Shown here one piece after another: positions 44,447 through 57,518 of a DNA stretch of 62,005 nucleotides (positions are counted from its first letter, which is position 1; every line of letters begins with the position of its first letter). The DNA comes from Myxococcales bacterium (GTDB lineage Bacteria > Myxococcota_A > Polyangia > Nannocystales > Nannocystaceae). Under the pieces are notes generated by a model, which ran no database searches, was not told where the DNA came from, and was given only the letters and a program-made list of their open reading frames with translations. Where the stretch lies: contig JAAZXR010000025.1 in assembly GCA_014240065.1 (NCBI GenBank), positions 1 through 62,005 on the forward strand, written 5' to 3'. The translations under genes and the position numbers were made by a program.

Positions 44447-47400
44447 ATGAGGCGCATAAGAATCAGCTGTCGGGCGGCGATATTGAGCGGCCTCTTTTTC
44501 GGGCTCGCGGGATGTGGAGACGAGAGCAACCCTGACGTCCCAAACAGGGTGTTGGACCGCCCCGTGGACCTGGCGCTGGCCTGCGTGGAGGTGCGATGCG
44601 AGGGGAGCGAAGAGGAGGGCTGCGAGACCGCCGCGCTGCCGGTCGCGTTCTGCGAGGGGGAGTCCAGCGGCTGCGATGTGCGTGACGCACCCCACCTGAT
44701 CGGAGCGGTCGCGAATTCCGAGCGCAACGAGATCGCGTTCTTCCAGCAGTGCTCTGGTAGCCTGGTAGATCTGGATCGACGCACGCCCGGATATCAGTTC
44801 GTCCCCACTGGAGCGCTGCCTTCGGCCGTCGTGAGCGCCGATGATTCGTGCTGGATCGCGTCGGCAAACGCCGGGAGCTGTAACGTCTCTGTGCTGGACA
44901 CCCGCGCGGTGGCGGCGGCCATGTTCGACGTGGACACCGCTGAGACTGGGCTGTCTGGGGCGGTGTCCACCATCGCGCCGCAGCGATTCGATCTGGACGC
45001 GGGGGGCTGGCGGCCGCTGGCGGCCCGGGTGGGCGCTATTTTGAGCGTGCCGTCGGGGCTGTCCCTCAGCACGAATATCCCAGGCGTCACCGTGCCGGAC
45101 GCCTCTCTTTGTCCGGCGGGTCGAGCCAAGAGCGCCTACGTCACGTTCCCGACCTGTGACCTCGTCGCGGAGGTTGATCTCAACACCCAACACATCTTGC
45201 AGAGCTTTCAGTTCGTCGAGGATGAAGACGGCGAGTGGACAGTGCTCGACGCGGGGATATCGCCGGTGTGTTCCGTGGACTGCGCGGGACAGATCAGCCC
45301 GGGGATGGACGAGGGAATCTCGGAGGTCAGCGCGGCCACGCTCGCGCCGACCTCCTTGGAGCTGATTCAACGCCACGTGCAGCAGTCGAGCGACGCCCCC
45401 CTCGACGGGGCAGATTTCGCGGTGGAGGGACAAGCGCTGCTCGTCGGAGGTCAAGGCTCCGACACGCTCTTTGAGATCCTGATCGATGACGACGGGGACT
45501 GGTTCCCGGACGCGAACCAGCTTGAGCTGTTTGAGGCCGGGGGCATCAATTCGATTCACGTGGCGCCGGCGGTCGATTTTGACGTTGAGGGCCGGGTGTG
45601 CGTGGGAACGGAGGGGCAGGCGATCGATCCTCACCAGTTCATCTACGCGGTGGTGGGCGATGGATCAACCCGGGTCGTGGACCGCGCGCTCGCGGCGGAT
45701 CGGTCCTTTATTGGCGTCGAGTGCGACACCCAGGTCGATCCCACGCTCTTTGACGTCAACGAGGCCTGCGTCCCTGCGCCCGCAATTTCTGGCGCAGCCG
45801 TGCCGTTCCAACGCCGTCAATTGGCACGGACTCCCGGGCTCGTCGCACCGGGCGGCGCTCGCTACACGGACTGGGCGTTCATGAAGAAGCGAGGCGAGGT
45901 GGTCGGGGAGGAGTCTTCGTCGGTCCCGCAGGTCGGGACCTGCGGCTCGGTCCTCGGCGTGGGGGTGACGGACGTGGGCGGGCTCACGTTCTCGATCTTC
46001 GATCAGTACCAGGGGCTGCCGGAGGCGCTGGGGGGAGATGACGACATCCCCGATCTTTCGCTGCTGAACCCCTACCTCGGCACGCACATGCTGCAGGCGG
46101 AGATATCTCCGGCCGCGGCGGCCAACGATGTCCTCGGAGAGTGGGAGAACGGGAGCCTCAACTACGGGGCGCTGCCGCGGATGGTGGACACTGGCCTCAT
46201 CCGACAGCTGCCGACAGGGAGCGGGCTGTCGCGCGTCCTCTCCCCGGGGCTGCGGCTCGTGGATTTCGCGTACACGGCGACGTATTCCCCCACCACTTCT
46301 CGCTCGCTGTTGTTGGGCTCGATCGCCAACGAGGACAAGATCGCGGGGGAAGACGACCTCGACAGCACCACGGAGGGTCCGTTGCAACTCGAGCCAGTGG
46401 TGCGCCCGTGGGTTCGCGACTACCGCGGATGGCCCACGGGGAGCTGGGAGCTTCAATGGGAAGGTTCCATCCCGAACACTGCGTCCTCGACCGGGCTTCT
46501 TTCTTGCGACAATCCGGGGTGGGAGGATGTGACGTGCAAGCCCGTTGAGCCTGACGACGCGCGGCTGTCCGATCCGTCCGCGAGCTTTTGCGACGACGGA
46601 GTTATCGCGGGAGACAAGTTGGTCCTGATCGGTTGCGACGAGGACTCAGACTGCGGCATCGCGGGGGCCTGTCTGCTCGCGGCGACCGTTGGGGCCGAGA
46701 GCAGCGGCATCTGCGTCGCGGCCAGCGCCTTGGACGAAGACCCACAGCTACGCGAGGCGTGCACGGAGTTCACTGAAGACCCGTGTGGAGAGGCATATCG
46801 CGAGTTTTTGATCACGCGGGCGTTCCAGTCGGAGCTGTGGATTCAGTCGCTTCCGCGGCGTGAGATGAGCTTCCTGCGAGGTCCAGATCCCGAGGATCCG
46901 GACGGATCAGGCGTGACCGCGTGTGATCCGGAGGGCGGAAATATCGGAGACGCATGCTCGGTCGATGAAGACTGCCCCAGCGGGCTCGACCTGTCCTGCG
47001 TGCTCGGGGAGTGCCAGTGTGTCTCGCCGCTTGAGGAGGTCATCGGCCCCATGATCTGCGGCCCGGAGCAGCCCGAGGCCGGATGTGAGACCCACGCGGA
47101 GTGCTATGACTTGCTCGACAACCAGCCCGAGGATCCCACGCCGGCGGCGGACGGGCAGCGCAACCAGGACTTCTTTTGCGTCGATCAACGTTGTCGCAGG
47201 GCCTGTGAAGACGAGGAGGAGTGCCTCCTTCGGAGACTGCCGGGGCCCCGTTGCTTCAGCGAGTTCGTCCGTTATTCGATCAGCGCCCGGAACTCGTTCG
47301 TCGTTGACGGCCCGGGAGCGCTGGATTTCTTCTCGGATCGCGTGCGTACGGACCCGGACACGTTGGAGTGCCTCGAAACCGAAGGGGCGACCGAAAACGT

Positions 47401-47968
47401 GTCGACGCTGCTCACGTCACGGGTGCCGCTCGGCCCCGACGAGCCCAACCTAGGCCTCCCGCAGTGCCCCGCCGGCCTGCCGTCATCGACGAGCCCGAAC
47501 CCCTGCGTGATCACGACACCGCGCTCAGATTCGGCGTCCTCTCAGTTCCACACCTTCACCTATCAAGGGGATCCGGTGACGGCCGTGAGGGTGAGCACCC
47601 CGGTGGGCTCGTTCGTTCTCGATCTCGTCGACCTGTTCACCTTGGGCTCCTCGCTGCCCGATGAACCGGGCGTTCTGTGGCCAGCCTCGTACCGCGAGTT
47701 TTATCGTGGTCGCTTGCCTCGGGGCTACCGCATGAATTTTGGGACGCTGCAGGCGACCGCGCCCCTCAACCTCTTCGGCCTCAGCGCGGATGGACTCAAC
47801 CCCTTGTACTATCCGGTGAGGATCGTTCCATCGCCGGATTTGACGGAGATGTTCATCGTCGACGCGACGGGATCCGGGAGTCAGTTTGGACTGCGGGGGC
47901 AGGTGCTCAAGGTGTTCGTGAATGGGATCTCCACGGTGGGTGACACGACCTTCGACGGCGTCCGGTAG
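44447..47968 (+). CDS. very large Cys-rich lipoprotein
   Basis: 1173 residues. Signal with lipobox LAGC (AILSGLFFGLAGCGDES). The first 400 residues contain propeller-like strands (SCWIASANAGSCNVSVLDTR, FVEDEDGEWTVLD). From about residue 710 come Cys-rich segments with a DxDC pattern: CDEDSDCGIAGACLL, CSVDEDCPSGLDLSCVLGEC, CETHAECYDLL. The end resembles the end of the preceding protein in style (PDLTEMFIVDATGSGSQFGL). There is no catalytic motif. With dozens of Cys residues it should be heavily disulfide-bonded on the cell surface. It follows the previous lipoprotein by 3 bases. Confidence 0.82.
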   Translation: MRRIRISCRAAILSGLFFGLAGCGDESNPDVPNRVLDRPVDLALACVEVRCEGSEEEGCETAALPVAFCEGESSGCDVRDAPHLIGAVANSERNEIAFFQQCSGSLVDLDRRTPGYQFVPTGALPSAVVSADDSCWIASANAGSCNVSVLDTRAVAAAMFDVDTAETGLSGAVSTIAPQRFDLDAGGWRPLAARVGAILSVPSGLSLSTNIPGVTVPDASLCPAGRAKSAYVTFPTCDLVAEVDLNTQHILQSFQFVEDEDGEWTVLDAGISPVCSVDCAGQISPGMDEGISEVSAATLAPTSLELIQRHVQQSSDAPLDGADFAVEGQALLVGGQGSDTLFEILIDDDGDWFPDANQLELFEAGGINSIHVAPAVDFDVEGRVCVGTEGQAIDPHQFIYAVVGDGSTRVVDRALAADRSFIGVECDTQVDPTLFDVNEACVPAPAISGAAVPFQRRQLARTPGLVAPGGARYTDWAFMKKRGEVVGEESSSVPQVGTCGSVLGVGVTDVGGLTFSIFDQYQGLPEALGGDDDIPDLSLLNPYLGTHMLQAEISPAAAANDVLGEWENGSLNYGALPRMVDTGLIRQLPTGSGLSRVLSPGLRLVDFAYTATYSPTTSRSLLLGSIANEDKIAGEDDLDSTTEGPLQLEPVVRPWVRDYRGWPTGSWELQWEGSIPNTASSTGLLSCDNPGWEDVTCKPVEPDDARLSDPSASFCDDGVIAGDKLVLIGCDEDSDCGIAGACLLAATVGAESSGICVAASALDEDPQLREACTEFTEDPCGEAYREFLITRAFQSELWIQSLPRREMSFLRGPDPEDPDGSGVTACDPEGGNIGDACSVDEDCPSGLDLSCVLGECQCVSPLEEVIGPMICGPEQPEAGCETHAECYDLLDNQPEDPTPAADGQRNQDFFCVDQRCRRACEDEEECLLRRLPGPRCFSEFVRYSISARNSFVVDGPGALDFFSDRVRTDPDTLECLETEGATENVSTLLTSRVPLGPDEPNLGLPQCPAGLPSSTSPNPCVITTPRSDSASSQFHTFTYQGDPVTAVRVSTPVGSFVLDLVDLFTLGSSLPDEPGVLWPASYREFYRGRLPRGYRMNFGTLQATAPLNLFGLSADGLNPLYYPVRIVPSPDLTEMFIVDATGSGSQFGLRGQVLKVFVNGISTVGDTTFDGVR

Positions 47969-48043: not shown

Positions 48044-48853
48044 GTGCGAATTGCAGAGCAGACGAGAGGGGGATACGATGGGACCTCCAGGTTCCAAGTG
48101 CCCTTCAGGATCAAACTCGGTGCGCAGTCGATTTTGGTGCCAGTCCAAGAGAATCTCACGCTCGGCCGGCATCCAGACTGCTGGTTGCAACTTTCGGCGG
48201 ACCTCGTCAGTCGGGTGCACGCGGAGCTCGGCGTGGTCGACGACCGGCTCCTCGTCACGGATCGAGGCAGTCGTAACGGCACCTATGTCAACGGTGAGAG
48301 GATCGAGGGGCAGCTTGAGTTGCGACACGGTGACGAGCTCCGGATCGGGCGCGAGAAGATTGTCGTCTCCGTTCTCTCTCCGGAGGATTCTGTCGCCAGC
48401 TTCGAAGAGTTGATCTCGCAGACGATGGGCATGGGGGACGACGCAGGCTTCGCGAGCCTGGTCGGGCAGCTCGTGGGCAAGAGCCTGAAACTCGGTAAGG
48501 TGAAAGACGCGGAGCGGTATCTGCGGAGTATGCTCGTGCAAATTCGCGCGGGCACATTTCACGAGAGTGATGGTGTGATCAGGGAATTCGTGAGAGGGGC
48601 GCTCGGGGTCGCGGAGCAGGCGAATGAGTTCGGATGGATGGACCGAGTGCTGCATCTGTACGCCGAGAAAGGGTGGATCATGAATTCTGCCCTCCTCGAT
48701 GACGTGGAGCGCGTGGCGGCGCTCCAAGCGAACGTCCCCGTCGGCGGGATCGAAGCCTACGAGACCATGCTTCGGAGCAGGCTTCGGCGCAGTCCGAGCG
48801 ACGACCTACACGCGATGATCGCTCGGGTGGCGACGTTGCGCGACGCACACTAG
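48044..48853 (+). CDS. FHA domain protein with a helical C-terminal domain
   Basis: 269 residues from GTG 48044. Residues about 20-110 form a canonical FHA domain: LTLGRHPDCWLQL, LVSRVHAELGV, TDRGSRNGTYVNGERI, HGDELRIG. All phosphothreonine-binding residues (GR, SxxH, RN) are present, so binding is expected. The remaining 150 residues are alpha-helical (FASLVGQLVGKSLKLGKVKD, AERYLRSMLVQIRAGTFHES) and resemble no family I can name, perhaps TPR-like. Cytoplasmic, with no membrane helix. Same direction as the lipoprotein pair, 75 bases downstream, and convergent with the OmpA-family gene. Probable ligands are products of the Ser/Thr kinases (inference). Confidence 0.85.
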   Translation: MRIAEQTRGGYDGTSRFQVPFRIKLGAQSILVPVQENLTLGRHPDCWLQLSADLVSRVHAELGVVDDRLLVTDRGSRNGTYVNGERIEGQLELRHGDELRIGREKIVVSVLSPEDSVASFEELISQTMGMGDDAGFASLVGQLVGKSLKLGKVKDAERYLRSMLVQIRAGTFHESDGVIREFVRGALGVAEQANEFGWMDRVLHLYAEKGWIMNSALLDDVERVAALQANVPVGGIEAYETMLRSRLRRSPSDDLHAMIARVATLRDAH

Positions 48854-48869
48854 CGGGGGACGACGCACG

Positions 48870-51134
48870 CTACTGTTCGCCGGTGTATTCGCGGACGCGG
48901 AGGACCGTGCGGTTGTTTTTGCGACGACCCGCCTCGGTGAGGTTGACCGCCACAGGTTGAGAGTCGCCGAGGCCGCGGGCCTTGATCCGCGCCGGGTCGA
49001 CGCCCTGGCCGCTGAGGTAGGAGACGACGGATTCCGCGCGGTTCTTGGAGCGCGCGCGAGGGTTGCCGCGGTCGTCTGTGTGAACCTGTATTTCCACGAG
49101 CACGTACTCCGGGTGATACTTCAAGAACGTCGCCAGCTCGTTCAAGATCTCATGGCTCGACGAGGACACAGTTGAACCGCTGTAGCGGACGCCGCGCTTG
49201 AGCCGGATCCGCGAGGAGCTGCCGCTCACGTTGGGCGTCTCGGGGGGCGTGTCACGTTTGAGGGTCCCGCTGACGGTGACGGATTCGGCGTCGACGGTGA
49301 AGCTGACAGACAGGGGCTCAAAACCCTCCGCGGTGATCATCGCCTGGTACTCACCGTAGTTGAGGGAGAGTCGAATCCGTCCCGCCTCATTGATGACGAA
49401 GCTCTCATCGACGGCGCCGCCCGTGACGCGCATGGACGCGGCGACGCCGGCGCCTGTTTCGTCGGTGAACGTGCCGTCGAGCAGACCCGCGGACGGCTCG
49501 GGCTCGGGCTCGGGCGCGGCCAACGTGAACGTGACGACGGCGTCCTCTCCCCCAAGCACCTCGGCGGTCTGGGTCATGGTCTCGCCCGACGCCGTGGTGA
49601 GCACGACGTCTGCGGGGCCGGGGGGGAGCGAATAGCCGACGAAGTTTCCGGCCACATCAGTGAGGATCACGCTGCCGCCAGACGAGGGGATGGAGATCCG
49701 CGCGTCACCGACGGGGACGCCCGCGGAGTCGATCACGGTCCCGACGACGCGCCCCGTCGGAGGGGGAGGCGCCGCGACAGGCTCCGCCTCTTCCACGGGC
49801 TGCTCTTTCACGACCGCGGCGGGATCGAAGGCCCATCCGATGCCAAGGATGACCTGATAGGGCGGTGTCGGAGGGCCGTACTCGTAGTTTGGAGACGTCG
49901 TGCCGATGTCGACGGCGGCGTCGAGGTGGAGGCCGGCGTAGACGTTGGCGCGCACGCCTAGGGTGAGCCACGAGGCCATGCGCGGGACCGGGCTCTCACC
50001 CCCGATCTCGGTGAGCTCGAGGAAATCGTCGTTTTGCTTGGTCGCGATATCGAAGGAGTATTCGAGGATAGGATCGATACCGAACTTCCTGTCTTTCCCG
50101 AATCGTACGGGGGCGTCTACCGCGAGGCGCGTACGCACCCGGGGTTGCATGGCGCCGAGCCCAAATCTGGCGATCTCTCGGCTCGGGAGGTCGTCGATGA
50201 GACCGAAGTTCGCGACCTTGTAGCTGTTGTCTTGGAAGTATCCGATGTTCGCGGTGAGGCGCATCGGGATCGCCCGCTCGGTGAGAAAGCGTAGGTCTGC
50301 GCCGATGATCGCGTCGACGTAGAAGCCGACGCGATCGGTGACGATCTTGCCGGCACCGCTGACGAGATTGATCCCGAGGGTTCCACCGATGCCCACGCCG
50401 CCCCCTCGGACACCGCGCCACGCCCCCTTCACGCCGAGGTCCATGTCCCCGAGCGCGTAGATCGAGGTCGGGTCGAGTCGAATTGGGGTGTCTCGGACGT
50501 TTCGGTTTGCGACACCGTGCAAGGCGAAGAAAACCTCCGTGTATTTGGTGAAGGTGAACCCGAGGTTGACCGTGTTCCGGAGCCGCGAGTGTGTGTCAGG
50601 TCCGTAGACCGCGTCATCGACGAACAACCGCTTGGATTTGAAGATGTCCGTGTGCACGCCGAAACGGAAGCTATATTTGGCGCCGACGCGGGGGAGCTGG
50701 GTGTAGAACAGACCGACGCTCCCGCGGGTCGTCTGCATCAGCGGCTCTTCGCGCCCCATGACGAGGGTGGGATCGTCGGCGTTTGCCTGCTCGGGGTCGG
50801 GGTCAGCGTCGGGCTCGGGGTCGGCGCTTGGCTGCTCGGCGTCGGGCTCGGGGTCGGCGCTTGGCTGCTCGGCGTCGGCGTCAGCGGGCGGCGACGCGGC
50901 GGCGCCGGTGGCCGCTGGCACGGGGGCCGTTTGTGCGGAGCTCGCGTCGGGGCCAGGCGGGGCGGTCGGGGCACCTCCCGCGGCGTCGGCGGGTGGGACC
51001 TCCGGTTCAAGCGCGCCCCCGGGAGGCGGGAGCTTGGGCGGTGCCGCCGTGGCTTCGTTGCTCGTCAAGGTGAGCGCGGAGAACAATACCGCGCTGAACA
51101 TAGGAGGGAACGCGAGCGAAGACAGTCGGCGCAT
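48870..51134 (-). CDS. OmpA-family outer-membrane protein with barrel and peptidoglycan-binding domain
   Basis: 754 residues from ATG 51134; the frame is open to 51830, but upstream sequence is antisense to the next gene. A signal peptide ends LTSNEATAA. An acidic Pro/Ala-rich linker contains two perfect AEQPSADPEPD repeats. A barrel-like region follows (SVGLFYTQLPRVGAKYSFRF, YTEVFFALHGVANRNV, LTLGVRANVYAGLHLDAAVD). Next come two beta-sandwich repeats of the CarboxypepD_reg kind (GRVVGTVIDSAGVPVGDARI; DGTFTDETGAGVAASMRV). The C-terminal OmpA domain binds peptidoglycan (IQVHTDDRGNPRARSKNRAE, DPARIKARGLGDSQPV). It is a probable envelope-tethering porin-like protein. GGAGGG lies 14 bases before the ATG. 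Confidence 0.88.
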   Translation of the reverse strand: MRRLSSLAFPPMFSAVLFSALTLTSNEATAAPPKLPPPGGALEPEVPPADAAGGAPTAPPGPDASSAQTAPVPAATGAAASPPADADAEQPSADPEPDAEQPSADPEPDADPDPEQANADDPTLVMGREEPLMQTTRGSVGLFYTQLPRVGAKYSFRFGVHTDIFKSKRLFVDDAVYGPDTHSRLRNTVNLGFTFTKYTEVFFALHGVANRNVRDTPIRLDPTSIYALGDMDLGVKGAWRGVRGGGVGIGGTLGINLVSGAGKIVTDRVGFYVDAIIGADLRFLTERAIPMRLTANIGYFQDNSYKVANFGLIDDLPSREIARFGLGAMQPRVRTRLAVDAPVRFGKDRKFGIDPILEYSFDIATKQNDDFLELTEIGGESPVPRMASWLTLGVRANVYAGLHLDAAVDIGTTSPNYEYGPPTPPYQVILGIGWAFDPAAVVKEQPVEEAEPVAAPPPPTGRVVGTVIDSAGVPVGDARISIPSSGGSVILTDVAGNFVGYSLPPGPADVVLTTASGETMTQTAEVLGGEDAVVTFTLAAPEPEPEPSAGLLDGTFTDETGAGVAASMRVTGGAVDESFVINEAGRIRLSLNYGEYQAMITAEGFEPLSVSFTVDAESVTVSGTLKRDTPPETPNVSGSSSRIRLKRGVRYSGSTVSSSSHEILNELATFLKYHPEYVLVEIQVHTDDRGNPRARSKNRAESVVSYLSGQGVDPARIKARGLGDSQPVAVNLTEAGRRKNNRTVLRVREYTGEQ
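50807..50872 (-). repeat. perfect 33-bp tandem repeat in the OmpA-family gene
   Basis: Two identical 33-bp copies, 50807-50839 and 50840-50872, encode the 11-residue unit AEQPSADPEPD twice. Degenerate copies flank them. Copy number is likely to differ among strains. Confidence 0.9.
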
Positions 51135-51368
51135 CTGCGGCTGATCGTCCCTCCGCAGGCCGCAGTTGTCAAACGTGCGGGACAATAAAATCACAGGTTT
51201 CTGGCACGCCGAGGGGCTCGGATGGTGTCGATGTTCGGCCCCGGGCGAATCGAGACGCAGGCGGCCCCTATGTGGACTGCCGGTGATCTGGCAGCGCACC
51301 CGCCAAGAAGGATGATTTCGTGGCACAGTGGAAGCGCAGGAACGAAGTCGCTGGTAGAGTGACCGCCG

Positions 51369-54368
51369 GTGCCCCGACGATTTGGCAGAGGGATTTACTC
51401 CAGCGGGGTCCGGCGTTGGATGCTCTTCCTCTTCGGATGGGTCACGTTGTTGGCAGGATCCGCGCGGGCTGACTCCCCGTCCGACGGGCTGGCGACCGGC
51501 GTCCTGTCGCCGCAGGAGGCGCGGGTATCCCAGGTGCGGGTCAGCCTCACCGTGGAACCGCACGCGAGCCGCGACGGGGGGGCCGCGGTTCATCGCAACA
51601 GGGCCGTGGCCCGAGGGAGGGCGCGCTACGTGCTCGAGGCTCCTCGCTCCACCGACAGCACCCTGATCTTGTTGGACTTCGCCGCGCACTTGCGAGAAGA
51701 ACCTCGCGAGCTCGACCAAATTCGGCTGGAGAGCTACGCGGACGGACCATGGCAGGGATCCTTCACGAACATTCTTCAGGCCCGGGTTGGCCGGCGGATG
51801 GTCGCGGTCGCCGCGAACGAGCATGGTCACTTTGAAATCGAAGTTCGCTCAGGCGAGCGGGAGGTGGAGCTCGAATACGAGGTGATCATGCCGCGCCGCA
51901 CGTGGCCGTTTGGATGCGCGCGCGGCAGATGCAGCTTGGTTGGGGCGGGCGCCCCGCTCCCGAGCGCGCGGGCGAGAGGGAGCGCGCGGCTAGGCCGACA
52001 CGAACGGGTCGTGGCGGCGGCGCGCTGGCACGTCGAGGCGCGCTTCAAGGCGGGCGCGCGGGTGCCGAAATCGACCGCCCGGGGGGAGGAGTGGGCGCAG
52101 CAAGAGCGTCCCTTCGTCAGCGACACGCCGCTGTTTTCAGGCGGCGACCTTCTCTATCCGATGGTGACGTGGGGAGGGCCATGGCTTGAGGCCCATGAGC
52201 TGTATCGCGGCGTAAATATCGAGGTGCTCTCCACTGTGCATCGACCCCAAGACAGGTTCCCGAACGAGACGAAGGGGCAGCTGTATCCGGACGCTGTGGG
52301 CCACGTCCTCGCGCTCGCGAAGGAGGCGATCAACGTCGCAGCGATCGCTGGGATCGAGCCGTCGGCGGGCACGACCCTGCGGGTGGTGCACGGCCCGTTC
52401 CGTTCCGCCATCGCCGCTGGCCATCCGAGCGTGGTGTTTGTGAGCGATCGAGCGTTTCAGGTGTTCCCCTCAAAGAAGGTCAGGAAATTCCATGAGGCCG
52501 CCGTCGCGCGCGCGGTGCTCGAGACCGTCGTCGGAGGGTTCGTCACCGGGCGATACGACGAATCTACGTCGCTGTGGGTGTCGGGGATGCTCTCGTACGC
52601 GCTCACCCAGGCCTGGCAGATTCGTAGGGAGAATCCCGACGAGTTCGCGGAGGAGATCCTCGGGAGGGTGAGCTTCATGCCCGCCGTGGATCGGTTCTTG
52701 TACACCTCGCAAGCGCAGTTCGCGAACAGTTATTTCCGCGGGTCAGAGGATCCGATGCCGGTGCGAAATGATCCTCGATACTTCGCGAACACGTTGCCCA
52801 CGGGCCGCCGGATTCACGAGAAGGCCACCGACTTGATGGGTCTAGACGCGGTGTCCGAGTTTTATCGCGCGCTCATCACAGAGCCGTCGGCGTCGCCTCG
52901 CACCTTGCTTGAGCGGGCCTACGGCTACACCCTCGACTGGTTCTTCGAGCAGTGGCTCGGTCCATTGGTGGCGTCCGATTATGGCGTGAAGGCGCTGGAG
53001 TCAACGCCTGATGGAGCGCGCTTCGCTCATCGGCTCACCATCATCAAATCGACCGATCGACCAGTGGTGGAGCCGCTGCAGATCCGTGTGCTGCTGCGTT
53101 CGGGGGAGGTCGTGCCGCTGGTGTGGAACGGCGAGAGCGCCCCCGACGATCCGCCCGCGCCGGAGACGGTCGAGGCCGACGGGGGACTCCGCGTGGAGCA
53201 TGTCTTCGAGTTTAGCACCGAGGCGCCCGTCAAGTCCGTCCTGCTCGATCCCAAGCAACGAATCGTACAGACCTCCCGGATCGCGACCTCGCGCGGAGGT
53301 CGGACAGACAACTCGGACCCCCGCTTCAATGATCTGGAGCCGAAGCGAGGTCGGTTCGTCTACACGGGGATCGGGATCAACGTCGCTGCGTCCGAGTTTG
53401 CGAGCGCGAAGACGCCGATCGCGCGGACCAACGCTGTGAGCGCTTTCTTGGCGTTCGAGGCGAGCCTGCGCCGCGACATGCGGCGCACCGCGAACTTCTC
53501 CATTTTTACGGACCGAGAGACGATCGTGGGGGTGGGGGCGGCGGGGAACTTTTTTTTCCTTCGACCGCGAAATCGCCAGCGGCGACGGCTGTCGCTGCGG
53601 GTGGGCGGCGGCGCCTCGTGGCTGAACCGGCAAGGCCTCGACGAGTCGCGAGGCGTTCGAATCGCGCAGTCCATAAGCTTGTTGGACAACACCACCCGCT
53701 TCGGCTGGTGGCCGGAGTCAGGTCACGTGCTGGAGCTGGGCGTGTCGAGCGGGCAGACCTTCCTCGACGCGGACCCCGAGCCGCTGCGCGTGACGCTCGG
53801 TGTCGGCGGCGGATGGGTGCAGTATTGGCGGATCGCGCATGAGCACGTGATCGCCACGGCGCTGCGGGTCGGAATCGTCAGCCCGCTCGTGGGGCAGATG
53901 CAGTTCAGGAGCCTCCTTCGAGTCGGAGGAATCGGCGGGCTCGCGGGGTTTGGCGCGAACGAGGTCTTTGGGAGGGGGGTCGCCAGGTTACAGCTTGAGT
54001 ACCGGCACCTGCTGCTCCGTCACCTCTCTGTCAACGGGCTGCACGTGGCGTGGTTCAGGGGCCTCGGCGGAGTCGTGACCGGCGGGGTGGCGTCGTCCAG
54101 CTCGTGCGCGGGGCTGGATGGATGGTTTGACCGCAGGTCGTGGTATGGGACCGCCGGCTACGCGGTGCAGGCCCAGGTCCAGATCCTCGGGGCGTTGCCG
54201 CAGCTCATTAGGGTCGAAGCGTCAGTCCCGTTCGGGCGGCGGACGACGGAGTGTCTTGGTGCTACGCTGCCCGACAAGATCGCGACCAGCCAAGGGCTGC
54301 CCGCGAGCAGCGCGTCCTCAGTCTTGCCGCCCTTGAGCGTCAATGTGACCTTTAATCACCCATTTTGA
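51369..54368 (+). CDS. outer-membrane protein: M1-peptidase-like domain without HExxH, fused to a C-terminal barrel
   Basis: 999 residues. Signal peptide MLFLFGWVTLLAGSARAD. Residues about 40-230 form a beta-rich domain. Residues 280-560 have the layout of an M1-type (gluzincin) peptidase: a helix with FHEAAVARAVLETVVGGFV, SLWVSGMLSYALT, and later YGYTLDWFFEQWLGP. The zinc motif is gone: the only HE, at 375-376, continues AAV rather than xxH, and the WLNEG Glu is replaced (WVSGM). From about residue 655 a barrel-like region runs to the terminal Phe (SLRVGGGASWL, VTLGVGGGWVQYW, LQLEYRHLLLRHLSVNG, NVTFNHPF). Presumably non-catalytic; the fold call is an inference. The next gene starts at its stop. 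Confidence 0.75.
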   Translation: MPRRFGRGIYSSGVRRWMLFLFGWVTLLAGSARADSPSDGLATGVLSPQEARVSQVRVSLTVEPHASRDGGAAVHRNRAVARGRARYVLEAPRSTDSTLILLDFAAHLREEPRELDQIRLESYADGPWQGSFTNILQARVGRRMVAVAANEHGHFEIEVRSGEREVELEYEVIMPRRTWPFGCARGRCSLVGAGAPLPSARARGSARLGRHERVVAAARWHVEARFKAGARVPKSTARGEEWAQQERPFVSDTPLFSGGDLLYPMVTWGGPWLEAHELYRGVNIEVLSTVHRPQDRFPNETKGQLYPDAVGHVLALAKEAINVAAIAGIEPSAGTTLRVVHGPFRSAIAAGHPSVVFVSDRAFQVFPSKKVRKFHEAAVARAVLETVVGGFVTGRYDESTSLWVSGMLSYALTQAWQIRRENPDEFAEEILGRVSFMPAVDRFLYTSQAQFANSYFRGSEDPMPVRNDPRYFANTLPTGRRIHEKATDLMGLDAVSEFYRALITEPSASPRTLLERAYGYTLDWFFEQWLGPLVASDYGVKALESTPDGARFAHRLTIIKSTDRPVVEPLQIRVLLRSGEVVPLVWNGESAPDDPPAPETVEADGGLRVEHVFEFSTEAPVKSVLLDPKQRIVQTSRIATSRGGRTDNSDPRFNDLEPKRGRFVYTGIGINVAASEFASAKTPIARTNAVSAFLAFEASLRRDMRRTANFSIFTDRETIVGVGAAGNFFFLRPRNRQRRRLSLRVGGGASWLNRQGLDESRGVRIAQSISLLDNTTRFGWWPESGHVLELGVSSGQTFLDADPEPLRVTLGVGGGWVQYWRIAHEHVIATALRVGIVSPLVGQMQFRSLLRVGGIGGLAGFGANEVFGRGVARLQLEYRHLLLRHLSVNGLHVAWFRGLGGVVTGGVASSSSCAGLDGWFDRRSWYGTAGYAVQAQVQILGALPQLIRVEASVPFGRRTTECLGATLPDKIATSQGLPASSASSVLPPLSVNVTFNHPF

Positions 54369-54391
54369 GCAAGGTGGCGAGCGAACGACAT

Positions 54392-55954
54392 ATGCGAGAG
54401 AACCCCGCGGATTCGAGAAATCGGTTCAAGAGTCGCGCGCTGTTGGTGGGGTTGCTCGTCCTCGAAGCCATGATTCGCGCGCCGGCGTTCACACAGGGTG
54501 GCTTCGTGTCACACGACGTCGCCGGGATTTTGTACTCCGCGATGGTGTTTCACGACGGTGGGCTCCCCTACGTTGACACCGTGGAGTTGAAGGCGCCCGG
54601 GTCATTTTATCTGGCGTGGGCGTTCGCGGGACCGGACGGCCGAGACATCGCGAAGTTCCAAGTGATCGCCAACCTCTGGGCGATGTGCGGGACGTGCCTC
54701 GTGTTCACGATGATGACGCGGGCGCGCGGGATCCTCGCGGGGACCGTGGCGGGGTTGGTGTACACGCTGCAGCAGCCGTGGCTTGACAGCATGGACGCCA
54801 ACTATGTCACGTGGGCGAACACCCTCCAGGTCGGGGCGTTCGCGGCGGTCTGGCGCAGCCCGGAGGCGGGCGCGAGCGTCCGCGCGAGAGCCTGGTTGTG
54901 CGCGGGGCTGTTGGCGGCGGCCGCGGCCCTGTGTCGGAGGCAGGCGAGCTTCATCCTGATCCCCTTGGTGTGGTGCGCTGTGGTGATGCCCGCGGGAGCA
55001 GCTTGTCTCCCCGGGCTCCGCCGACGCCGGCTCGTAGGTCTTGTGCTTGGCGGCGTCGCGCCGTTCCTCGCGGTGTTCGTGCACTACGCGTCGCACGGGG
55101 AGGGCGGCGCCTTTGTCCGCGCGTATGGGTTCAATGAGTGGGGGTGGAGCTACATCTCAGCGGCGGGCCGAGGGGGGAGCACGCTGCTGGAGGGATGCCT
55201 GGCGACAACTTTCTTTTTGGCCTTGCCTCTTGGCTTGGTGGCGCCCGCTGCCGCGGGGGGGCTGGGCCGCGCGAGGCGGTGGGGCCCGTTGGTCGTGTGG
55301 CTCGTGAGCATGGTCGCCGCCGCGTGGATCGGCGGGCGGTTGTACAAGGGGTACTTCGCGCTCACGCTGGCTCCCGCGGCCATGTTGAGCGGCGCGGCGA
55401 CGGCGACGCTCGTTCGCTCGTGGAGACGCGGGGTGCGGCCTGGCCGTCTCGGGCGCGCGCTCGCGCTGGCGGTCACCATGACTGTCGGCGTGCTGTCGTT
55501 GCGTAGCGGGCTGCTCCTCGAGGAGGTGCGCGCGGCCCGACACCTCCCACGAGACGCGGGCGCGCGGCGCATCGCGTCGCACGTGGCCGCCCACACCACG
55601 CCTGAAGACACCATCTGGGTGTGGGGATGGCATCTGTGGGATCTGTATCCGCTGGCGGGTCGGCTGGCGGGGAGCTCCATCTACAAATCGTTGGGCGTCC
55701 TGACACCGGCCAACGACGACAACTGGCGCAGCGGGGCGCGGCCGCTGCGGTTCATGGAATCCGCGCGATCCGAGCGGCTCCTGCGAGAGCTGCGAGCCTC
55801 GCGGCCGCGCTATATCGTCCTCGGTTCGACGGTCCCACACCGTGAGTTCAAGGCGCTCCGCGAGCACTTGAGGCGCGCGTACGCGCGAGATCGCCGGGTG
55901 AGGGTGGGGCGCGTGGAGATCTGGAGGTTACGGGACACGAGGCCCGCGCGATGA
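54392..55954 (+). CDS. GT-C family membrane glycosyltransferase
   Basis: About 520 residues from ATG 54392; TTG 54365 and GTG 54374 are also in frame and would overlap the preceding stop. The protein is polytopic with roughly ten hydrophobic helices. The first loop contains SHDVAGILYSAMVFHDGGLP followed by YVDTVELKAPG, the pattern of GT39/ArnT-like enzymes with an acidic residue for the polyprenyl-phosphate sugar donor and an xPYxD...P motif. Such enzymes move sugars from lipid carriers to lipids, proteins or polysaccharides on the periplasmic face. The acceptor is unknown. It follows the pseudo-peptidase barrel gene immediately and is convergent with hutH. Confidence 0.78.
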   Translation: MRENPADSRNRFKSRALLVGLLVLEAMIRAPAFTQGGFVSHDVAGILYSAMVFHDGGLPYVDTVELKAPGSFYLAWAFAGPDGRDIAKFQVIANLWAMCGTCLVFTMMTRARGILAGTVAGLVYTLQQPWLDSMDANYVTWANTLQVGAFAAVWRSPEAGASVRARAWLCAGLLAAAAALCRRQASFILIPLVWCAVVMPAGAACLPGLRRRRLVGLVLGGVAPFLAVFVHYASHGEGGAFVRAYGFNEWGWSYISAAGRGGSTLLEGCLATTFFLALPLGLVAPAAAGGLGRARRWGPLVVWLVSMVAAAWIGGRLYKGYFALTLAPAAMLSGAATATLVRSWRRGVRPGRLGRALALAVTMTVGVLSLRSGLLLEEVRAARHLPRDAGARRIASHVAAHTTPEDTIWVWGWHLWDLYPLAGRLAGSSIYKSLGVLTPANDDNWRSGARPLRFMESARSERLLRELRASRPRYIVLGSTVPHREFKALREHLRRAYARDRRVRVGRVEIWRLRDTRPAR

Positions 55955-55970: not shown

Positions 55971-57518
55971 TCAAGAGAAGTTGAGCGCGGGCAGGTCGGA
56001 GGCCTCGCGCAGCTCGCCGCGGAGGATCGCGTCGGTCAGGGCCTCGAACTCGTCGGTGTAGCTGCGGTCGCCCTCGTGTGGCGCCACGTGCTGGCGTATC
56101 GCGGCGTGGACTCTCTGGAGCGCGGGGCTCGTCGGCTGATCGCGGAGATCGATCGCGCGGGCGGCCGTCACCGCCTCGATCGCGAGCACGCCGGCGACGT
56201 TCCGCACGACGCTGGCCATTTTGCGCGCAGCGATCGGTCCCATGCTCACGTGATCTTCTTTGCCGGCTGAGGTTGGGATCGTGTCCACGGCCGCCGGCAT
56301 GCTGAGCGATTTACACTCGCTCGCGAGGGCCGAGGCGGTGACGTGCGCCATCATCAGTCCACTCTCGAGCCCCGGGTTGTCGGCGAGGAACGCGGGGAGT
56401 CCCCGCGAGGAGTCGGGGTTCATGAAGCGATCGATGCGTCGCTCGCTGATGGTCGCGAGGCTCGTGAGCGAGGCGGTCGCATGGTCGGCGGGGAGGGCGA
56501 CGGTCGCCGCGTGGAAGTTGCCCCCCGAGACCACGTCGAAACCACCGTCGGCGCGAGCGAGGACGAGGGGGTTGTCGGTGAAGCTGTTGAGCTCCGTCTC
56601 GATCGCCCCGCGGACGTAGGTCAGCGCCTGGCGGACCGCGCCGTGGACTTGAGGCATGCAGCGGAGGGAGTAGGCGTCTTGGACGCGTCCACAGTCGACG
56701 TGGCTTTGGTTGAGGCTGGATCCGTCGACGAGCGCCGCGAGGTTGGTGGCGACCTGGATCTGTCCCGGGTGGGGCTTGCCGGCGTGGATCCGAGGATCAC
56801 AGGTGCTGATCGTCCCGAGGTGAGCGTCGAGGCTCATGGCCCCGATGATGTCCGCCGCCGCCATGAGCTCGAACGCGTCGACCGCGGCGAGGGCCGCGAT
56901 CGCCGTCGTGACCTGGGTGCCGTTGATCAGGCTCAGGCCCTCTTTTGGACCGAGAGAGAGCGGCTCAATGCCCGCCGCGGCGAGAGCGTCGGCCGCGGGT
57001 ATCCGTGCGGCGCCGTCGCAGATGAATCCCTCACCAATGAGCGGGAGGGCGAGGTGGGCGAGCGGGGCGAGATCGCCGCTCGCGCCGACGCTCCCTTGGG
57101 ACGGGACCTCTGGGATGAGGTTCGCCTCGAGGAGGGCGAGGAGTTTTTTTGGGACGCAGGGCCGAACGCCGGAGGCGCCGAGCGCGAGCGTGTGGGCGCG
57201 CAAAAATAGCAAGCCGCGGGTGACGTCATCGGCCAGCCGCGGCCCCACTCCGACCGCATGGGATCGGAGCAGATTACCTTGAAGAGGCGCGAGCGCCTCG
57301 GGCGCGATTCGGGTCTCGCTCAACGCACCGAATCCAGTGTTCACTCCATAGATGATCTGACCGTCCGCGAGGGCGGCCTCAAGCTGCGCTCGGGTCTTCG
57401 AGAGCGCCGCGAGAGCGCCCTCATCCAGCTCGGTCGGCTGCCCGCGCCGACTCACGGAGGCGACGTCGAAGATGGAGACCGGAGAGCCGACGAGAACGGT
57501 TGCTGTTTGCTCGGACAT
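55971..57518 (-). CDS. hutH: histidine ammonia-lyase
   Basis: 515 residues, the family length. The catalytic MIO cofactor forms from Ala146-Ser147-Gly148 in GSVGASGDLAPLAH. The N-terminal loop has IYGVNTGFG (Tyr57 is the catalytic Tyr). Downstream blocks include NGTQVTTAIAAL, LDAHLGTISTCDPRIHAGKP, QDAYSLRCMPQVHGA, SGGNFHAATVALPADHAT and TIPTSAGKEDHVSMGPIAAR. The enzyme converts L-His to urocanate, step one of His degradation. None of hutU, hutI or hutG is adjacent, so the gene is orphaned here. The VNTGFG and SAGKEDHVSMG blocks favour His over Tyr or Phe as substrate. Upstream, 129 bases separate it from a divergent kinase gene. Confidence 0.92.
   Translation of the reverse strand: MSEQTATVLVGSPVSIFDVASVSRRGQPTELDEGALAALSKTRAQLEAALADGQIIYGVNTGFGALSETRIAPEALAPLQGNLLRSHAVGVGPRLADDVTRGLLFLRAHTLALGASGVRPCVPKKLLALLEANLIPEVPSQGSVGASGDLAPLAHLALPLIGEGFICDGAARIPAADALAAAGIEPLSLGPKEGLSLINGTQVTTAIAALAAVDAFELMAAADIIGAMSLDAHLGTISTCDPRIHAGKPHPGQIQVATNLAALVDGSSLNQSHVDCGRVQDAYSLRCMPQVHGAVRQALTYVRGAIETELNSFTDNPLVLARADGGFDVVSGGNFHAATVALPADHATASLTSLATISERRIDRFMNPDSSRGLPAFLADNPGLESGLMMAHVTASALASECKSLSMPAAVDTIPTSAGKEDHVSMGPIAARKMASVVRNVAGVLAIEAVTAARAIDLRDQPTSPALQRVHAAIRQHVAPHEGDRSYTDEFEALTDAILRGELREASDLPALNFS

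Follow-up and report, generated by a model that had tools for sequence, protein, structure and literature searches.

A zinc-less M1 peptidase-like module joined to an Omp85/BamA-type barrel in Nannocystaceae and their relatives

The gene at 51369..54368 (+) of the window, by which is meant the whole 62,005-nucleotide stretch of Nannocystaceae DNA analysed here, is best explained as encoding an outer-membrane protein with an Omp85/BamA-type barrel and a catalytically dead M1 aminopeptidase-like module, a reading to which we would give a probability of roughly 0.6. In two phyla the fusion has been conserved in the form of a pseudo-enzyme family. A search for homologues with and without the HExxH zinc motif, as proposed in the initial annotation of this DNA, recovered dead forms in those two phyla and an HExxH-bearing sister group elsewhere.

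Domain architecture of the fusion protein

The reading frame starts with GTG, encodes 999 amino acids with a C-terminal Phe999, and is present as one copy in the source genome; its description draws on the ORF, its translation, an AlphaFold2 model and VIA-align. Residues 1-34 (51369..51470, +) look like a signal peptide, judged by eye from the translation and from a helix in the model: a basic n-region with Arg is followed by a hydrophobic helix (residues 14-30) and by A-R-A preceding D35. The protein has only four Cys (183, 188, 913 and 962), which are conserved within Nannocystaceae, and the pairs C183/C188 and C913/C962 would fit two disulfides and an oxidising envelope location.

Sequence searches with the window protein returned no Pfam family at E<=1, no NCBIfam family and no PDB chain, and a profile of 20 homologues matched one PDB chain, a BamA, at E 0.19 only. 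The fold assignment was thus made from the AlphaFold2 model, built with 28 aligned sequences as input (mean pLDDT 78.3, pTM 0.71, with low-confidence segments of pLDDT under 50 at 425-459 and 629-657). The 50 best Foldseek rows were all M1-type aminopeptidases (best E 2.2e-15), and VIA-align, which re-examined the top 1000 Foldseek chains, placed M1 chains over residues ~48-651 and BamA chains over ~662-997. Among the former were tricorn factor F3 (1z1w; Z 21.5, rmsd 6.3, 412 aligned, model residues 51-651) and a cold-active aminopeptidase (3cia_B; Z 18.2, rmsd 4.4, 346 aligned); with rmsd values as large as 4-6 Å across several domains, these superpositions speak to the fold and not to a precise site. 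A search of viral structures turned up a single clear M1-like protein, from Tupanvirus (E 5.7e-12), which is no surprise for this fold.

From the model and the profile alignments, residues ~48-628 are predicted to adopt the M1 aminopeptidase fold of domains I-III. These comprise a domain I-like beta domain (residues ~48-275; 51510..52193, +) holding the conserved Cys pair C183/C188, a domain II-like, pseudo-catalytic domain (residues ~276-533; 52194..52967, +) and a domain III-like all-beta domain (residues ~534-628; 52968..53252, +), the first two delimited by the model, VIA-align and profile alignment and the third by the model and profile alignment. The initial annotation had called for structure prediction and had suggested that the middle domain resembled an M1 peptidase; the predicted fold, M1 domains I-III and a BamA-type barrel, agrees with the M1 likeness, but the match spans the whole N-terminal part rather than a middle domain. 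Soluble M1 aminopeptidases (PepN, tricorn factor F3, ERAP1 and LTA4 hydrolase) share the fold of domains I-III, whereas the window protein is without their catalytic residues and carries a membrane barrel. An inactive aminopeptidase-like fold within a scaffold is also found in TAF2, a TFIID subunit, although TAF2 is eukaryotic, nuclear and has no barrel.

The barrel occupies residues ~661-999 (53349..54365, +; alignment, model and VIA-align), includes the conserved Cys pair C913/C962, and ends in Phe, as had been noted at the outset. Its matches to the BamA chains 9ccg_A (Z 21.3, rmsd 3.2, 268 aligned), 8xnb_A (Z 18.7, rmsd 4.2, 266 aligned, model residues 668-996) and 8bo2_A (Z 18.2, rmsd 4.2, 265 aligned, model residues 662-997) place the modelled barrel in the Omp85/BamA type, a refinement of what had been described only as an outer-membrane barrel. 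Pfam Omp85 is matched by relatives and not by the window copy: by 2 of the 28 sequences in alignment A2, by 6 of the 26 in the wide myxobacterial alignment A5, weakly by 3 of the 18 in the zinc-competent alignment A3, and by a protein of the Candidatus Manganitrophus group (L058) at 1.1e-8, above the cut-off. The same L058 protein matches Peptidase_M1 at 0.0048, below the cut-off, and so ties both domain names to the fusion family by sequence. In the alignments LAGF (53940..53951, +) stands where Omp85 proteins have the loop-L6 motif, without the Arg of (V/L)RG(F/Y), and many relatives have LRGY or LRGF there. DSSP finds 14 barrel strands in the window model, not 16, and about 16-17 in the active homologue L077; five of the 14 follow L6, and BamA has five strands after L6. 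When the barrels of A2 and A3 were compared on their own, the L6 region was aligned at E 6e-4 with an HH probability of only 28%.

No POTRA domain was found in the model, where residues 534-660 form strands only, with no helix of length 4 or more, so that the domain III-like beta domain and a linker would occupy the POTRA place. BamA and TamA, whose likeness to the window protein is that of the barrel fold only, have POTRA repeats where the latter has a pseudo-M1 module. Since POTRA is absent, and since POTRA-less Omp85 subfamilies are described in the accessible text of PMC4104836, the protein would be filed in the Omp85 superfamily by its modelled barrel type only.

The lost zinc site and a zinc-competent sister group

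The same domain order, M1 domains I-III followed by the barrel, occurs in proteins of about 1000 aa that are zinc-competent, a sister group common among Calditrichota- and Bacteroidota-like genomes. Alignment A3 gathers 18 such loci, labelled Calditrichota, KSB1, Neomarinimicrobiota, Kryptonia and Bacteroidota (L060, L077 and L078, for example). All 18 match Peptidase_M1 and have HExxH-x18-E, the latter by choice, as the loci were selected for HExxH and L066 and L068, which are without it, were left out. Like the window protein's relatives they often have an LRGY-type motif; they differ from the window protein in keeping the zinc site, a GGMEYP-type motif and an invariant Tyr, and 6 of the 18 end in Phe. 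The L077 model (pLDDT 84.8) matches the M1 fold at Z 32.5 (rmsd 2.8, 453 aligned); its VIA list is filled by M1 chains, and its barrel rests on DSSP strands. In L066 and L068, KSB1/Bacteroidetes-labelled M1-barrel ORFs, HExxH is replaced and WLDEG has become WLYRG while Tyr is kept, apparently through a separate, independent inactivation.

Profile alignment of A5 with A3 (E 3.4e-28, 792 columns) runs from domain I to the barrel end, at template column 988 of 1001, and together with a tree links the dead and the zinc-competent fusions, which on these grounds appear homologous. In the tree of 61 rows, for which Nannocystaceae were thinned to 10 rows and pieces under 600 aa dropped, active and dead forms are split with an SH-aLRT of 100 and Nannocystaceae form one group; resting on SH-aLRT only, with an odd letter make-up in 51 of the 61 rows, the split is no dated or rooted history. 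Counted as profile matches regardless of zinc motif, a match at 1e-50 is present in 68 of 79 genomes of the phylum of the L060 genome, extending from the M1 part to the barrel end in 26 of the 79; for the phylum of the L081 genome, 104 of 148 genomes match, with at least 11 full-length from M1 through the barrel. Among the matches listed for 188 Myxococcota genomes there was no active M1-barrel fusion: none of these extends past profile column 615, and the barrel begins only beyond it.

Measured against these relatives, the window protein has lost the M1 catalytic site. Profile alignment of the M1 parts of A2 and A3 (HH probability 99.3, E 2.7e-20) sets H375-E376 against the first two letters of HExxH, with the second His lost; a gap of about ten residues in the HExxH helix leaves the superposition of H375 unsure. 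In place of HExxH the protein has the remnant H375-E-A-A-V379 (52491..52505, +), of which H375 is 96% conserved in 45 homologues and the second His position is not. W403-V-S-G406 (52575..52586, +) replaces WLxEG, which is WLDEG in the zinc-competent relatives, and the third-ligand Glu has become Gly406; with HEAAV and WVSG, the protein does not have the HExxH-x18-E site. The GAMEN-type motif is likewise absent, GGMEYP of L077 aligning with an AAGHPS stretch in which the Glu is replaced by Gly351, and Leu476 aligns with Tyr468 of L077, invariant in A3, which we take to be the catalytic Tyr of the M1 family. The original suggestion of a peptidase domain without its zinc site, drawn from the missing HExxH, is therefore extended by the comparison with zinc-competent relatives to the third ligand, the GAMEN Glu and the catalytic Tyr. 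HExxH occurs nowhere in the window protein, but its absence alone was rejected as evidence: only 148 of 5000 shuffles of the protein's letters contained HExxH, and at so low a chance rate the bare absence carries little weight and it is the aligned site that counts.

Distribution, selection and gene neighbourhood

Profile matches were found in 42 of 59 relatives, made up of 28 of 29 Nannocystaceae genomes (a count that includes the source genome and some copies cut by contig ends, most being full-length open frames) and 14 of 30 genomes from other families of the class. Across Myxococcota, 69 of 282 genomes match at 1e-5, and named carriers include Nannocystis exedens, Plesiocystis pacifica, Enhygromyxa salina and Paraliomyxa miuraensis. 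Candidatus Manganitrophus belongs to a phylum, presumably Nitrospirota, of which 10 of 148 genomes match. HExxH is absent from all 28 sequences of A2 and all 15 Nitrospirota ORF pieces; it occurs in one of the 26 sequences of A5, at residue 53 of a stop-to-stop ORF and far from the domain. The Nitrospirota forms retain the first His and, in most cases, the third-ligand Glu (WVAEGLAD, WLIEGMAD) but have no HExxH, and represent a partial state of zinc-site loss. In Candidatus Manganitrophus GAC4 (L057, 7334-9920) the gene is broken into neighbouring ORFs of 239 and 649 aa; the related L058 genome has it in one piece.

Compared with a same-genus copy that is 80.8% identical over 657 codons (residues 342-999), the window gene gives dN/dS values of 0.05 for domain II, where dS is saturated at 2.35, 0.13 for domain III and 0.09 for the barrel. 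On this codon comparison, ratios of about 0.05-0.13 show that the dead domain is maintained by purifying selection.

Downstream lies an ORF at 54365..55954 (+) for which the label of GT-C (PMT_2-like) glycosyltransferase is plausible, as 7 of 10 aligned orthologues match Pfam PMT_2 (best E 8.2e-6) and the window copy does not. That this gene begins at the stop codon of the fusion gene, as first noted, holds in the source genome, where a possible TTG start at 54365 overlaps the TGA at 54366-54368. An association of the two genes across genomes, which was to be checked, is borne out in part: a GT-C gene is downstream in 10 of the 24 Nannocystaceae loci that have sequence on that side (in L049 and L054 there is no such sequence), at a distance of 2.5 kb in L048, and is missing from six Nannocystis loci. 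The most conserved family neighbour is instead a divergent gene for an OmpA-domain protein with carboxypeptidase-regulatory-like domains (48870..51161, -; a start near 51.16 kb was chosen, the longest ORF reaching 51830), found in 17 of the 24 Nannocystaceae loci with upstream sequence (L031 and L050 having none). The six Nannocystis loci and L056 have neither the OmpA-domain nor the GT-C gene.

Other neighbours were also seen. In Nannocystis a gene for a cysteine-rich repeat protein stands in the place of the OmpA gene, and in L036, L041, L048 and L056 a cysteine-rich repeat protein is divergent from the fusion gene (with nine DUF7107 stretches in L048). A histidine/aromatic amino-acid lyase gene (55971-57518, -; Lyase_aromatic, E 6.9e-178) adjoins the GT-C gene and is conserved in several relatives, while upstream an FHA-domain protein (48044-48853, +) and a 1173-aa ORF with no Pfam match (44447-47968, +) have relatives at the corresponding position in other Nannocystaceae. 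Beyond the family, 15 distant regions were compared, of which L161 and L162 were in effect excluded, the GC-based ORF picker having given almost no ORFs and no marked homologue in them. In the 13 distant loci with a marked homologue, no neighbour was common to Nannocystaceae and other myxobacterial families, and gene context thus gives no function. Three of the 13 (L149, L152 and L154) have a patatin-like gene cluster adjacent to the fusion gene or close to it, and the L152 member meets Pfam Patatin; the position of the cluster near a pseudo-M1/Omp85 gene is reminiscent of PlpD, in which patatin and Omp85 are fused.

Location and possible role of the dead module

Where N-terminal modules of Omp85 proteins have been studied, POTRA domains among them, they lie in the periplasm. 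In Pseudomonas aeruginosa PlpD, which likewise has an enzyme-fold module N-terminal to an Omp85 barrel, the patatin domain was once thought to be secreted and, according to the accessible text of PMC11116518, was shown to stay in the periplasm. From Omp85 topology and PlpD together, the pseudo-M1 module is very probably periplasmic by analogy, and the proposal that the dead peptidase is fixed at the cell surface is not supported. PlpD differs from the window protein in having a patatin lipase module and POTRA, where the latter has a zinc-less M1 module and no POTRA; Pfam matched no patatin domain in the window protein, which is predicted to have the M1 fold instead.

Positioned in the periplasm beside the barrel gate, the module could hold an extended polypeptide in its former substrate cleft near the gate, or dock a partner there, and the barrel could be an accessory device that helps to assemble or translocate the envelope proteins of these bacteria or to maintain the outer membrane. 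Because the domain and its cleft-region residues are conserved and catalysis is lost, polypeptide or partner binding would be the likeliest use. That the module is a binding or scaffold module replacing POTRA domains is put at somewhat less than even odds. An accessory in assembly or translocation is the general role suggested for uncharacterised Omp85 subfamilies in the accessible text of PMC4104836. More tentatively, the de-zinced cleft may be a chaperone-like pocket in which extended envelope polypeptides are caught before being handed to the barrel, a task that would otherwise fall to POTRA domains; such a use would be ancient and shared by at least two phyla, active cousins may trim the translocated substrate, and L066 and L068 would be a second inactivation.

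Next after the binding or assembly reading comes a PlpD-like role in maintaining lipids or LPS; the N-terminal domain would then regulate or dock a lipid enzyme and not bind a polypeptide. Deletion of plpD alters membrane lipids, as given in the accessible text of PMC11116518. The patatin-like cluster near the homologue in three of 13 distant loci points the same way, but this neighbourhood is not common to Nannocystaceae. Patatin genes are in any case common, and the M1 fold is not known to act in lipid transport; this alternative is considered unlikely. Less probable still is a surface-exposed or secreted dead peptidase that serves as a peptide receptor or adhesion scaffold. The barrel anchor, the retained M1 fold and the terminal Phe would suit it, but the fusion protein showed neither a second anchor nor a surface-display motif, and Omp85-type N-terminal domains face the periplasm, where the patatin domain of PlpD stays (PMC11116518, accessible text). 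About as improbable is continued enzymatic activity in that cleft, by way of a new metal site or of chemistry that needs no metal. Conservation of H375 (96%), R381 (91%), D360 (93%), D441 (96%) and D488 (96%) in 45 homologues indicates that the cleft region is constrained, but across these homologues a single His is conserved in the whole protein, and in domain II no Cys is, so that a new metal site is unlikely; the GAMEN Glu, the third ligand and the Tyr have been lost, and the Nitrospirota forms, with their first His and mostly their third-ligand Glu, do not keep the second His. A decaying relic without function, which the loss of all catalytic residues might suggest, was rejected on the dN/dS of about 0.05-0.13 and is almost certainly wrong, 28 of 29 family genomes carrying the gene, mostly as full-length open frames.

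A putative binding module of M1 type can be set beside the Omp85 modules already named, one of which includes PF00149, the calcineurin-like phosphoesterase fold, unrelated to M1. Heinz and Lithgow (2014), in the accessible text of PMC4104836, divide the Omp85 superfamily into ten subfamilies by the domains before the barrel, naming patatin, "Metallo" (PF00149 with Omp85), lipoprotein and POTRA-less forms; the "Metallo" subfamily resembles the present fusion in having a metal-enzyme fold before an Omp85 barrel, and the word "peptidase" has 0 occurrences in that main text. A literature search run without most subscription journals found no published description of M1-Omp85 proteins and no name for the zinc-competent fusions.

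At the outer membrane, proteins are assembled or translocated by Omp85-type barrels, whose N-terminal modules have a part in deciding the substrates. An M1 module that is dead in two phyla and zinc-competent elsewhere would be a further type of Omp85 module. Its forms would also make up a natural series from active to inactive, with three zinc ligands kept, two in Nitrospirota and one in myxobacteria, and would allow a test of whether the cleft of a peptidase can stand in for POTRA domains, for which Nannocystis exedens, Plesiocystis pacifica and Enhygromyxa salina are culturable. In this family a peptide-cutting enzyme has probably been turned into a binding module inside the cell envelope.
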